Assembly (NCBI GenBank): GCA_902778135.1
Contig: CACYWP010000003.1
Location: 1 to 64,000 of the forward strand
Origin: an uncultured Coriobacteriaceae bacterium
GTDB lineage: Bacteria > Actinomycetota > Coriobacteriia > Coriobacteriales > Atopobiaceae
Reading direction: 5' to 3'
Length of the DNA stretch: 64,000 bases
In this document: piece after piece, positions 36,112-40,233 of the stretch
How positions within the stretch are numbered: position 1 is the first letter of the stretch
How the letters are laid out: each line of letters begins with the position of its first letter
Program-made: the position numbers and the translations under genes
The notes under the pieces: model-generated
Database searches by the model: none
What the model saw: the letters and a program-made list of their open reading frames with translations, nothing else
Told to the model about the DNA's origin: nothing

Positions 36112-39100
36112 CTAGGCCCCGAAGAACCGCCGCAGCGCCGCGCCAAACCCCCTTCTGACCGGCTCCTCTTCCTCGACCTCGTCTTCCTCGTCGTCGAAGT
36201 CGTCCTCGTACTCGAGGTCGTCCTCGTCGTAGGGCTCGTCGTCCTCGTAAAACCCGTCGTCCTCGTCCTCGAAGAGCTCGGGGTGCTCCCTCTCCAGAAA
36301 CTCCAGGTCGACCAGCGTGGAACGCGCGTCGGGGTCATCGTCGCCGAACTCCTGGCACTGCAGGTCGTAGGCACGGCTGAGCAGCTCGCACTCCTTCTCG
36401 AAGTTCCCCTGCTCGCCGTAGGTCAGGGCCAGGTCGGCCAGCGACCGCAGGGTCCGCCGGTCCGTCTCTCCGTAGAGCCGCTGCTTGAGCGTGTGCTCCC
36501 GCTGCTGCAGGAACAGCGCGCGGCTATAGTCCTCCAGCTCGTCGCAGACCTGCGCAAGCGCCGTGAGGGCTGCAATCGTGTCCTCGTGCTCGTCCCCCAT
36601 GACCTCGCGCCGCAGCTCGTAGGAGCGCTCCCTCAGCCTGAGCTCCTCGCGCAGCTCGCCCTTGCCCCCATGCTCCTCGGCCAGCTCGTCCATCGCGTCG
36701 AGCGTCCTGGGGTCCCTCTCCCCAAACTGCTCCATCAGACGGTCGTATGCCCGCTGGCGCTGCGAGGCCTTCCTGACGCCGGACGGCCGGGCCACAAGGG
36801 ACGGGTCGGCAAACGTCATCTGCGTCTGTGGTCTCGCATGGGCCATCAGGGCTGGCGCAAGGGACTCCAGCGGTATCGTCGGCTCGCCGAACTTGGCGTT
36901 CGGGCCACTGAGCTCGGCAACCGCCGCAAAGACCGCCTCCGGGGAGATCTCGCCCTCCTCGGCGCGCAACAGCTCGAGGGTTCCCCCGAGAAACCCCACA
37001 TGCAGGATGTGGCGCCACTCCGGACGCAGCAGCCCCACGATCCGGTCGCCCGCGTCCCCCTCGCCGCCGCCATCCAACCCGGCACGCGCCCCCTGCCCCC
37101 GAAGCTCGGAGATGGCCTCCAGCATCGCCTGGGCCTGCCGCGTCAGCGGATGGCCCTCGCCAAGCGCCTGCCCCAGCCCCTCGCATGCCCGCCGCGCCTT
37201 CTCCTCGGCGACATCATGCTCCCCCAGCAGCGCGTGGGACGCCGCCAGGTAGGAGAGCGTCGTCAGCGCGTCGGGGTGACTCTCGCCCAGCGTCTCGCAT
37301 TGCGCCTGGTAGGCACCTGCGTACAGGTCGTTGGCCACCTTGCACCGGCCACCTCGGACGAGGTTCGAGGCCACGTCGACCATCGCAGCCAGGGTGTCGG
37401 GATGCCGCTCGCCCAGCACGCGCCTCCGTAGCCCATAGGCCTGCTCTGTCATCTCGGAGGCAACGTCCCAGTCCCCCACCCGCGCCGCGCAGCCGGCATA
37501 GTTGCCCATCGCCGTCAGGGTGCGTGGGTTGATGTCGCCCAGCGCCTTGCGGAAGCCCCTGTAGGCATCCCGCGTGAGCTCGAGCGCCCGCTGGGAGTCG
37601 CCCAGCGCCTCGAAGGTCAGTCCCAGCTCGTTCATGGATGCCAGCGTGTCGGCATGCCCCTCCCCCAGGATGTCCGTGCGCTTGTCCAGGAGGTCCTCGT
37701 TGATGTACAGGGCCTGCTCGTAGTCGCCCAGCGCGCCGTGCACGATTGCGAGGTTGCTCCGGGCGCTGAGGTTCTCGGGGTGCTGCTCGTCCCATAGCCT
37801 CTGGTAGAGGTCGCACGACCGCTTGATGGCGTCAAACGCCTTCTGGTATTGGCCCAGCTCGAAGTACACGCTGCTCAGAGCGGTCAGGTCGCGAGGCAGG
37901 TGGCTGTCGTAATGGCCCGCCATGTACATCGCGAGCAGCGAGGTGGCAGCCTCGCCCTCTATCTTCGTGCGGGAGAACAGGGCAAAGCTCTTCATCTCGG
38001 AGAGCCGCTCCAGGATCGACGCGGCCTCCTCGTACGCCCCGGCATCCACGAGGGAGCTCGCCAGGTTGTGGCGCTCGTTCACCGTGATGAAGAAGTCGGG
38101 CCCGTAGTGTATCTCGCACTGTGCCACGATGCGCCGCTGCCAGTCCAGCGCCTTGCCAAGGTCGATATCGACGCCCTGTCCCTGCTGGTACATGGTCTTG
38201 AGCTTGTTCATCGCCTTGATGAGTCCCGCGTCGGCCGCCCCGCCGATGAGCCCGACGGCACGGTCTCGGTCGACCTCCATGTCGATGCCATCGAGGTATG
38301 CCAGCCCCATGAGGTAGTCGTGCTCGGGGTCGCCCGCCTTGTTCTGGAGGTCGACGTCCGACAGGATGCCCAGCAGGCCCTTGTGGACCGCATCCTTGTC
38401 CGTGGACAGCACGCACGCGGGGATGCCCTTGAACTTGCTCTTGAGCTTCGCATGGTTGGTGTCCACCATCTCCACGGGCAGGACGTCCATGCCCGCGTCG
38501 CGTGCCGTCGGATACTCCTCGGCCATCACAAAGTTGGGCTTTCCATCCGGCTCCTCGAGCACGTTGGGCGTCACGAGGAGCATGAAGAGCCTGCTCGCCC
38601 GCAGGGCGTCATCGATGGATTCCCTGAAGCTCTCGCCGGGCACCAGGAACTCGTCGTACCAGAGGGCGACGTCGCGAAGCTCTGGCTGCTCATGGACGAG
38701 GCGCATGAGCTCGTTGGCATGCGCGCGATCCTTCTTGCGGTAGCTCAGGAAGATGTAGGCGTCGAAGGCGTCCCTGATCCTGCGGGCAGTATTGTCGCTG
38801 GTCAGCGTGGAGTCGAGGTGGTTGCGAAGCTTGTCCTTGTAGTCGACGGCCGTCACGTCGGCCTGGTGGCGGTCGACGAACTGCAGCTCGCCGAAGCGGT
38901 CCTCGCGACTGTAGACCTCGAGCACCTCGGGGCTGATCACATCGGGGTCGGTCACGATGGGAAGCACCGGGATGTGGTGCCTGCGGGCGTAGGGGAAGTC
39001 CACGTCCATGGCGCGGTTCGGCTGGGTGAGGAGGCGCCTCGACACCGGGATGATGAAGAGGTTCATGCGCTCGAGACCGGAATGGAGGACGTCGGGTGGC

Positions 39101-39285
39101 AGGCTGTCGACCATGCTCTCGGCATAGTAGACGGCGCAGTCGTGCGTCCTGAACAGGTCCTCGCAGATCGGCGAGAACGTGTCGGCGAAGTCGTCGGGGT
39201 GGCAGGTGAAGTACACGCGGGGCTTCCGGCTGATCGAGACGTTGTCCTTGGACCGCACCCTCAGAGACTCCATGGCGAGTTCCAT
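36112..39285 (-). CDS. Double TIR / Sel1 / TPR protein
   Basis: About 1057 residues. Residues about 17-120 form a TIR-like domain (RVYFTCHPDDFADTF ... LFIIPVSRRLL). A second, more canonical TIR lies at about 174-290: YIFLSYRKKDRAHANEL, LWYDEFLVPGESF and LFMLLVTPNVL; the glutamates in GESFRESIDDAL sit near where TIR NADases keep theirs. Sel1-like repeats follow (about 310-370), then two long arrays of kinesin-light-chain-type TPRs (YEQALYINEDLL, LGEGHADTLASMNELGL), then a very acidic tail and a basic end. TIR-TPR proteins act as NAD-cleaving or signalling enzymes in bacterial immunity. Start uncertain: ATG 39285 and 39273 are both possible. Confidence 0.85.
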   Translation of the reverse strand: MELAMESLRVRSKDNVSISRKPRVYFTCHPDDFADTFSPICEDLFRTHDCAVYYAESMVDSLPPDVLHSGLERMNLFIIPVSRRLLTQPNRAMDVDFPYARRHHIPVLPIVTDPDVISPEVLEVYSREDRFGELQFVDRHQADVTAVDYKDKLRNHLDSTLTSDNTARRIRDAFDAYIFLSYRKKDRAHANELMRLVHEQPELRDVALWYDEFLVPGESFRESIDDALRASRLFMLLVTPNVLEEPDGKPNFVMAEEYPTARDAGMDVLPVEMVDTNHAKLKSKFKGIPACVLSTDKDAVHKGLLGILSDVDLQNKAGDPEHDYLMGLAYLDGIDMEVDRDRAVGLIGGAADAGLIKAMNKLKTMYQQGQGVDIDLGKALDWQRRIVAQCEIHYGPDFFITVNERHNLASSLVDAGAYEEAASILERLSEMKSFALFSRTKIEGEAATSLLAMYMAGHYDSHLPRDLTALSSVYFELGQYQKAFDAIKRSCDLYQRLWDEQHPENLSARSNLAIVHGALGDYEQALYINEDLLDKRTDILGEGHADTLASMNELGLTFEALGDSQRALELTRDAYRGFRKALGDINPRTLTAMGNYAGCAARVGDWDVASEMTEQAYGLRRRVLGERHPDTLAAMVDVASNLVRGGRCKVANDLYAGAYQAQCETLGESHPDALTTLSYLAASHALLGEHDVAEEKARRACEGLGQALGEGHPLTRQAQAMLEAISELRGQGARAGLDGGGEGDAGDRIVGLLRPEWRHILHVGFLGGTLELLRAEEGEISPEAVFAAVAELSGPNAKFGEPTIPLESLAPALMAHARPQTQMTFADPSLVARPSGVRKASQRQRAYDRLMEQFGERDPRTLDAMDELAEEHGGKGELREELRLRERSYELRREVMGDEHEDTIAALTALAQVCDELEDYSRALFLQQREHTLKQRLYGETDRRTLRSLADLALTYGEQGNFEKECELLSRAYDLQCQEFGDDDPDARSTLVDLEFLEREHPELFEDEDDGFYEDDEPYDEDDLEYEDDFDDEEDEVEEEEPVRRGFGAALRRFFGA

Positions 39286-39522
39286 TCTCTCTCGGCTTGT
39301 GGCGACATGCAGGCAGAACCAGTGTAACCCCGAGATGGGCGAACATCTCCGCAGGTCAGCCCCTTCATCGACCATATGCCGGAAAACCCGGTCCGCAGCC
39401 ACGGGGCGCATGCCTCTCGCAGGCCCCTTCGTCCCAACAAGCCGCCAGGTGCGACGGACGGCAAGGTTGATGCACTAGACTGGGCACTGACGCAGCGCCG
39501 ACACGTGTAGGAAGGAGGGTGC

Positions 39523-39693
39523 ATGAACATCGAGGACCTGACCCAAGAGCAGCGCCAGAAGCTCACAGCGTGCAAGACTCCCGAGGATGTGCTTAGCCTG
39601 GCAAAGGCCGAGGGCGTCGACCTCACCGACGAACAGCTCGAAGACATAGCGGGTGGCAAGAGCTGGGAAGAGATAATCTACCACGGCTACTAA
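39523..39693 (+). CDS. 56-residue peptide with Nif11-like, double-glycine leader
   Basis: The sequence runs MNIEDLTQEQRQKLTACK, TPEDVLSLAKAEGVDLTDEQ, LEDIAGG and then KSWEEIIYHGY. The leader part, with its two helices and LxxIAGG ending, is the Nif11/TOMM-type RiPP leader, cut after Gly-Gly by peptidase-type ABC exporters. The remaining 11-residue core has no cysteine and only one serine, so it is not a lanthipeptide; it could be a signal peptide or a Tyr/Trp-modified product. GGAGG lies 4 nt before the ATG and a terminator lies 84 bp after the stop, so it is a single-gene transcript. No maturation enzyme or exporter is encoded next to it. Confidence 0.75.
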   Translation: MNIEDLTQEQRQKLTACKTPEDVLSLAKAEGVDLTDEQLEDIAGGKSWEEIIYHGY

Positions 39694-39776
39694 GCCCAAG
39701 ATGCGCCGGTGACGGCAGAAGGGACGGGCATTGCCCGTGATGGCCCACCCCACCGGCAGGAAGTCGATCGGCCCAT

Positions 39777-39815
39777 GCCCCATCTCGTCTCGAGGCGAGG
39801 TGGGGCGTCCTTTCG
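39777..39815 (+). terminator. Terminator after the leader-peptide gene
   Basis: GCCCCATCTCGTC (39777-39789) pairs with GGCGAGGTGGGGC (39794-39806) over a TCGA loop with two G-T pairs, then GTCCTTTCG. Good intrinsic terminator shape with a short T-run. Confidence 0.65.
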
Positions 39816-39849: not shown

Positions 39850-40233
39850 CTACGCGTCCAGCCACTCGACGAGCACGTACTGCTGCATGATGGCAAAGAC
39901 GTGCTCGGGAGAGGGAATCTCGAGGAACTCCGCGTACTTGCGCACGAAGAGCGCGCTGAGCTCCTGGTGGAAGTCCCGCACGATGTCGGCGATGTCCGCG
40001 CCGGGATGGTGCCGCAGGTACTCGTCTATCGGCAGCTCCCGCGAGAACTCCCGGAACTGCTCCATCGAGATGCCCATGCCCACGTCGTGCAGGTAGCAGC
40101 CCATGAGCAGCGTGTAGATGGCGTCCTCGTTGAGCCTGGACGCCTGGCTGGGACCGATCAGGCGGTTGCAGAAGTCGATGACGCTCATGCTGTGCAGCGT
40201 CGAATGGTCGGTGTACTCCGGGAACAGTGACAA
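39850..40233 (-). CDS. Short HD-domain protein, possibly truncated
   Basis: A 127-residue protein with an HD phosphohydrolase start: FPEYTDHSTLHSMSVIDF (first His), then LLMGCYLHDVGMGIS (the HD pair). The later conserved motifs of the domain are missing, because the frame ends shortly after the second helix pair. Relatives are several hundred residues long, so this may be a truncated gene. Start is TTG at 40233 with GGGGGAG upstream. Confidence 0.6.
   Translation of the reverse strand: MSLFPEYTDHSTLHSMSVIDFCNRLIGPSQASRLNEDAIYTLLMGCYLHDVGMGISMEQFREFSRELPIDEYLRHHPGADIADIVRDFHQELSALFVRKYAEFLEIPSPEHVFAIMQQYVLVEWLDA

Follow-up and report, generated by a model that had tools for sequence, protein, structure and literature searches.

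A stand-alone Nif11-leader peptide and a putative trans-acting tryptophan prenyltransferase family in Coriobacteriia

The 56-codon open reading frame at 39523–39693 (+) of the window (the whole 64,000-nucleotide stretch analysed here) appears to encode a stand-alone RiPP precursor, and we propose, with a probability of roughly one in two, that its Trp48 is prenylated in trans before the peptide is cut at a double glycine and exported. Under this proposal, ~20 Nif11-leader precursors scattered through the genome would rely on common machinery acting in trans: the leader would dock an enzyme of a family that we call A2, with a predicted ABBA (PT-barrel) fold; the docked enzyme would attach an isoprenoid to Trp48 (core position +3); and an NHLM-type C39 exporter would cut after G45 of the GG and export an 11-residue prenyl-peptide, or a shorter one if it is trimmed. 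The final product may act as a signal or an antimicrobial. More broadly, and with our confidence evenly divided, we envision an unrecognised RiPP system in Coriobacteriia of the rumen and gut in which leader-guided ABBA Trp prenyltransferases of a large family act in trans on dozens of dispersed Nif11 peptides that are exported by NHLM C39 proteins, KSWEEIIYHGY being one of the products.

The encoded peptide, MNIEDLTQEQRQKLTACKTPEDVLSLAKAEGVDLTDEQLEDIAGG followed by KSWEEIIYHGY, has 56 residues, and the gene and its surroundings carry the following features:

39510..39519, plus strand: ribosome binding site GGAAGGAGGG, read from the sequence, just 5' of the ATG
39523..39693, plus strand: Nif11-leader RiPP precursor gene, 56 codons and stop
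39523..39657, plus strand: leader of 45 residues, ending IAGG; the Nif11 domain covers residues 9–37
39622..39639, plus strand: L34(X)4L39 motif at positions −12 and −7, read from the sequence
39652..39657, plus strand: double-glycine cleavage site, from the sequence and the family alignment
39658..39690, plus strand: core peptide KSWEEIIYHGY, 11 residues, read from the sequence
39664..39666, plus strand: Trp48 codon, core +3, the family's conserved Trp and the proposed prenylation site
39775..39808, plus strand: 15-bp stem-loop between convergent genes, a possible transcript end without a T-run

The initial annotation had described a 56-residue open reading frame with a strong ribosome binding site and a Nif11-like leader, and both descriptions hold. 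The peptide matches the Pfam Nif11 model PF07862 with an E-value of 8.4e-7 (29.6 bits against a gathering cut-off of 23.8) and the same leader recurs in ~20 paralogues, which together argue against a chance reading frame; its match to TIGR03798 (NCBIfam) lies below the cut-off (24.6 versus 32.3 bits). Helices are predicted at leader residues 8–16, 20–30 and 36–43, and the precursor peptide modelled alone gives helices only. The L(X)4L motif is a contact site for C39 peptidases in published systems (PMC6363468) and for the MppC prenyltransferase (PMC12715784), and the GG cleavage site previously read from the sequence is kept in the family alignment. Of the terminator that had been credited to the gene, the stem-loop is there, 82 nt beyond the stop codon with a folding energy of −27 kcal/mol (z −4.4), but it lacks a T-run, and promoter and terminator scans returned nothing at consensus level and no canonical terminator for the peptide gene.

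On one side, the gene is divergent from a gene for a large TIR and TPR protein (36112–39411, −) that is similar in part to the TPR proteins of FxSxx-COOH systems. On the other, it converges with a gene for an HD-CE domain protein (39850–40233, −) that matches only positions 1–132 of 263 and is probably truncated. Comparison of the flanking genes of the window with fetched relatives revealed no shared gene order, and the matches came from a histidine kinase only.

Although it had been described as an orphan, at the genome level the peptide is one of many. A search for similar peptides in the source genome (3.17 Mb, 50 contigs), proposed in the initial annotation, found the leader again in ~20 paralogues, spread over at least nine contigs, the best of the others with an E-value of 7e-15 (26 matches at E ≤ 10 and 21 at E ≤ 1e-6 in this search; 23 at E ≤ 1e-5 in another). 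Their alignment shares the leader and GG throughout, and the cores vary except for a Trp at +1 to +5, mostly at +3; a GG followed by a hypervariable core, in a family of paralogues within one genome, is the pattern of Nif11-type leader RiPP precursors. The core was correctly reported to contain no Cys and one Ser, and calling it unusual was apt in that only 12 of 148 related cores likewise lack Cys, but with a Trp at +3 it bears the signature of the family. The suggestion that Trp could be modified agrees with what we propose.

As to export, the leader has L(−12), L(−7) and GG, the features by which C39 peptidases recognise their substrates (PMC6363468), and three C39 proteins are encoded in the genome, on contigs C1, C2 and C7. 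All three pass the TIGR03796 (NHLM_micro_ABC1) cut-off in one search, those on C1 and C7 in another; genes for the TIGR03797 partner adjoin the exporters on C1 and C2, a further ABC match adjoins the one on C7, and a paralogous precursor (C1:29080) sits 1.4 kb before the C1 exporter. A survey of 140 genomes from this taxonomic family found peptides in 41 of them and an exporter over the cut-off in 42, with 37 having the two together (Fisher p 7e-24). In the other four peptide-bearing genomes the exporter genes are split or truncated (~430–794 bits), so that exporter sequence accompanies the peptides in 41 of 41, and three genomes of the same genus (G007, G008 and G010) have neither peptide nor exporter. 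On these sequence comparisons, the leader and its role in export are well supported. A separate set of three GG precursors, with another leader type (LDLDGLDGVSGG) and long cores, lies directly after the NHLM exporter pair at C1:35222–36453 (L026).

The initial annotation had also proposed a genome search for a C39 exporter and would have counted against itself a genome lacking such an exporter or a RiPP enzyme, which does not apply: besides the three NHLM_micro_ABC1 exporters, the genome encodes a single LanM and eight proteins that resemble prenyltransferases. The annotation's statement that no maturation gene lies nearby was sound: C39, LanM, YcaO, SPASM radical-SAM and prenyltransferase-like proteins are all without a match on contig C3, where the peptide gene resides, an absence checked also by a lenient scan of the window. 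The prenyltransferase-like proteins belong to the A2 family, which came from clustering the genes that lie no more than 4 kb from related peptides. At ~335 residues, A2 is the commonest neighbour of those peptides (22 copies in 14 loci), and searches with its sequence came back empty in Pfam, NCBIfam and the PDB; only a fold search gave it an identity.

In an AlphaFold2 model of an A2 copy from contig C9 (pLDDT 91.7, pTM 0.91), helix–helix–strand–strand units are repeated, and a Foldseek search of the PDB with this model puts ABBA aromatic prenyltransferases at ranks 1–37, with probabilities up to 1.00. The best matches are the indole prenyltransferase IptA, tryptophan 5-DMATS, EpzP, DMATS1 and AmbP1; FamD1, an NphB-type enzyme (Streptomyces CL190), CymD and the peptide prenyltransferase LimF are also among the ABBA matches, and PirF appears at rank 41. 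The predicted fold class is thus clearly ABBA (PT-barrel), and because TM-scores are moderate (~0.5) and identities only 8–13%, the fold does not reveal the acceptor or the donor. Glu, Asp, Arg, Gln, Lys and Tyr residues are invariant in the A2 alignment, and many of the invariant Glu, Arg, Lys and Tyr residues fall on barrel strands of the model.

The eight A2 copies lie on contigs C9 (two), C38 (three), C29, C18 and C13. An enzyme with a predicted ABBA fold (the C9 copy) is therefore encoded in the same genome as the precursor without being clustered with it, and since neither the window nor contig C3 holds an A2 gene, any action on this peptide would have to be in trans. Elsewhere in the genome the two families do meet. 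The C9 pair precedes a precursor with the core TWYDCMNETW, and at C38:1647–7006 (L037) a single 5-kb locus contains a precursor with the core VEMTWERDCNCEP (Trp at +5), a SPASM radical-SAM gene and three flanking A2 genes. At C29:1639–5501 (L208), a LanM gene is followed on the same strand, without a gap, by an A2 gene; that locus also includes, at 1047–1322, a divergent GG precursor of another leader type with the core TGYFEGVLSVVIMEPACFEDD. We count the position of the C29 copy directly behind LanM, as in the published mpp cluster, in favour of prenylation.

We infer both the prenylation of Trp48 and the trans action on the KSWEEIIYHGY precursor, and one argument is that Trp and A2 occur together. 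A2 is found in 37 of the 140 family genomes, every one of them peptide-bearing (p 1e-29). A Trp lies within five residues of the GG in 118 of 148 coriobacterial-type cores versus 44 expected by shuffling (each core shuffled, 2000 rounds; maximum 63), and in the first five positions of none of the 45 LLKGL-type cores from Lachnospiraceae and relatives. Trp-headed cores make up 77 of 92 in genomes with A2 versus 1 of 45 in genomes without it (p 9e-22), a correlation of the candidate acceptor residue with the enzyme that speaks to association and not to chemistry. Among 24 individually searched genomes, 12 coriobacterial ones and G163 (labelled Erysipelotrichaceae) have both A2 and Trp-headed cores, and the 11 non-coriobacterial genomes that make up the rest have neither. 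These tests ignore shared ancestry, so their p-values are optimistic; 31 of the 41 peptide genomes come from two genera and Trp also follows a leader subfamily, and the association is partly phylogenetic. More telling are the contrasts within the genus and between phyla. No relative with the core KSWEEIIYHGY turned up in the 140 family genomes or in the 80 loci kept from a contig scan, so purifying selection on this core is not demonstrable.

A rival reading is that the peptide is secreted unmodified, the leader serving only cleavage and NHLM export and KSWEEIIYHGY being a plain signal or small bacteriocin. We regard this as unlikely though far from negligible. It would account for the lack of a maturase near the gene and for the exporter being the most consistent partner of the peptides, fragments counted, and the ComC and BlpC models match weakly, below threshold, at the GG. 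However, the core retains the Trp that follows A2 across genomes, and Trp-headed cores are all but absent from genomes with an exporter and no A2. Among the A2-free genomes are four from this family, including two of the same genus, in which exporter and peptides are both present; because these four still have the exporter, Trp follows the enzyme and not export.

A gene that is decaying or silent and has no product is a less probable explanation, which nonetheless has precedents within this expanded family: one relative has a frameshifted leader (C1:223633) and another contains a stop (C5:49211). The closest core relative, ADWWKCEEYHGHGR in L089, lies 0.75 kb from a 52-residue remnant of an enzyme gene, a sign that a precursor may stay on alone once its enzyme gene is lost. 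Against decay, the leader, GG and Trp are all intact here and the ribosome site is strong. The ADWWKCEEYHGHGR relative, with an A2 remnant close by, is also counted for the prenylation reading.

We further doubt that another trans-acting enzyme alters Trp48 or the Tyr and His residues, by radical-SAM cyclophane formation or crosslinking, or that LanM dehydrates the single Ser. Candidates are at hand: ten loci have a member of one of two radical-SAM families next to a related peptide, the genome itself encodes one LanM and six SPASM proteins that exceed the cut-off, and the XyeA triceptide model matches the peptide weakly (E 0.015). But the radical-SAM neighbours mostly stand beside Cys-rich cores, the residue at W+2 that triceptides need is not conserved in the family alignment, contig C3 has no SPASM radical SAM, and a lanthionine requires Cys together with Ser or Thr in the core. 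With no Cys and one Ser, lanthionine and thiazole chemistry are ruled out for KSWEEIIYHGY, and the only LanM of the genome lies unlinked to the precursor, on contig C29. One YcaO protein over the cut-off is encoded on C20, ~2.2 kb before one paralogue; that route was set aside for this core, which has no heterocyclisable residues beyond the one Ser.

The two radical-SAM families (L131:7163–8044, L104, L124, L097 and L105; L110:4432–5781, L111, L112, L139 and L163) adjoin Nif11-leader precursors such as GWSSPSCGDDTAWTYAC and MMWGDVCVGVACKVCRGYKGCKCY and are likely further maturation systems. Zinc-ribbon-like cores follow a Nif11-type leader and GG in L123, L126, L130, L132, L135, L142, L144, L152, L162, L165 and others, and two CxxC pairs occur in 41 of 45 LLKGL-type and 35 of 148 coriobacterial-type cores; these are apparently exported small zinc ribbons, a core type that was considered as the function of the family and rejected for this member. 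A family of ~400 residues without a Pfam match (MARRTLMQRDRELVDFEVDP...) adjoins peptides in six loci (L031:7359–8615, L096, L105, L126, L127 and L158).

Least plausible to us is that A2 proteins are non-catalytic, with the PT-barrel fold serving immunity, chaperoning or leader binding and Trp being a recognition residue, a reading that the remote similarity (8–13% identity) and the tandem repetition of divergent copies, as many as four at L139, would allow but that fits poorly with invariant Glu, Arg, Lys and Tyr residues that, in the model, could bind a prenyl diphosphate, and with the copy directly behind LanM.

These results connect an unannotated enzyme family with one particular residue of a large group of peptides that gut bacteria secrete, and genome-wide co-occurrence can assign a likely maturase to precursors without a nearby enzyme. 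If the prenylation reading is true, combinatorial sets of short prenyl-Trp peptides would be exported, ~20 natural test substrates would be available in one genome, and such bacteria would supply short lipidated peptides, which may be signals or antimicrobials. Leader-guided Trp prenylation, published for a single lanthipeptide cluster of a cyanobacterium, would also reach actinobacteria that are abundant in the ruminant gut.

Our literature search, which reached few subscription papers, found nothing linking Nif11, Coriobacteria and RiPPs, and the leader–exporter part of the system is already known. N11P peptides (TIGR03798) have been linked to the NHLM exporters TIGR03796/TIGR03797, including in Eggerthella lenta (Haft 2010, PMC2887384), and they share with the peptides here the leader family, the GG, large paralogous expansions and the NHLM exporter. 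The parts of that account on which we draw describe no prenyltransferase or Trp signature, and, unlike the N11P peptides described there, most precursors here are unlinked to any enzyme and the peptide falls below the TIGR03798 cut-off. In LahA/LahT of Lachnospiraceae, a C39 peptidase cuts many Nif11 precursors with diverse cores, as we propose here; those precursors stand in one gene cluster (PMC6363468), whereas here Trp-headed cores accompany a prenyltransferase-like family.

Trp is also the lipidation site of a short bacterial peptide in ComX/ComQ, where ComX is a signal, and in PalX/PalQ, but ComQ and PalQ have the isoprene-synthase fold and not ABBA; PalX has an NHLP-type leader, and ComX is matured by unknown proteases (PMC10853753). 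The cyanobactin prenyltransferases PagF, LimF, PirF and KgpF do have the ABBA fold, and LimF and PirF are in the Foldseek list for A2, but they act leader-free on macrocycles (PMC12715784) and A2 matches indole prenyltransferases better.

The nearest published system is MppC/MppE, in which a leader-dependent Trp prenyltransferase acts on a Nif11-leader lanthipeptide: in the mpp cluster of Moorena producens (2025), MppC geranylates the core Trp and requires the Nif11 leader, including L(X)4L (PMC12715784). It is the one characterised cluster for Nif11-leader-guided Trp prenylation, and its authors also mined related lanthipeptide clusters (PMC12715784). Common to both are a Nif11-type leader with L(X)4L, a soluble ABBA-type enzyme (predicted here) and a Trp in a short core; mpp has a LanM partner, and here one A2 copy (on C29) lies directly behind LanM. 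Unlike in mpp, most precursors here stand alone without LanM, the cores are mostly non-lanthipeptide and the leader is short (45 residues), and A2 has no Pfam or NCBIfam match. What is new is the unannotated A2 family, the almost strict pairing of A2 with Trp-headed Nif11 peptides across Coriobacteriia, and the arrangement of many precursors dispersed over the genome.
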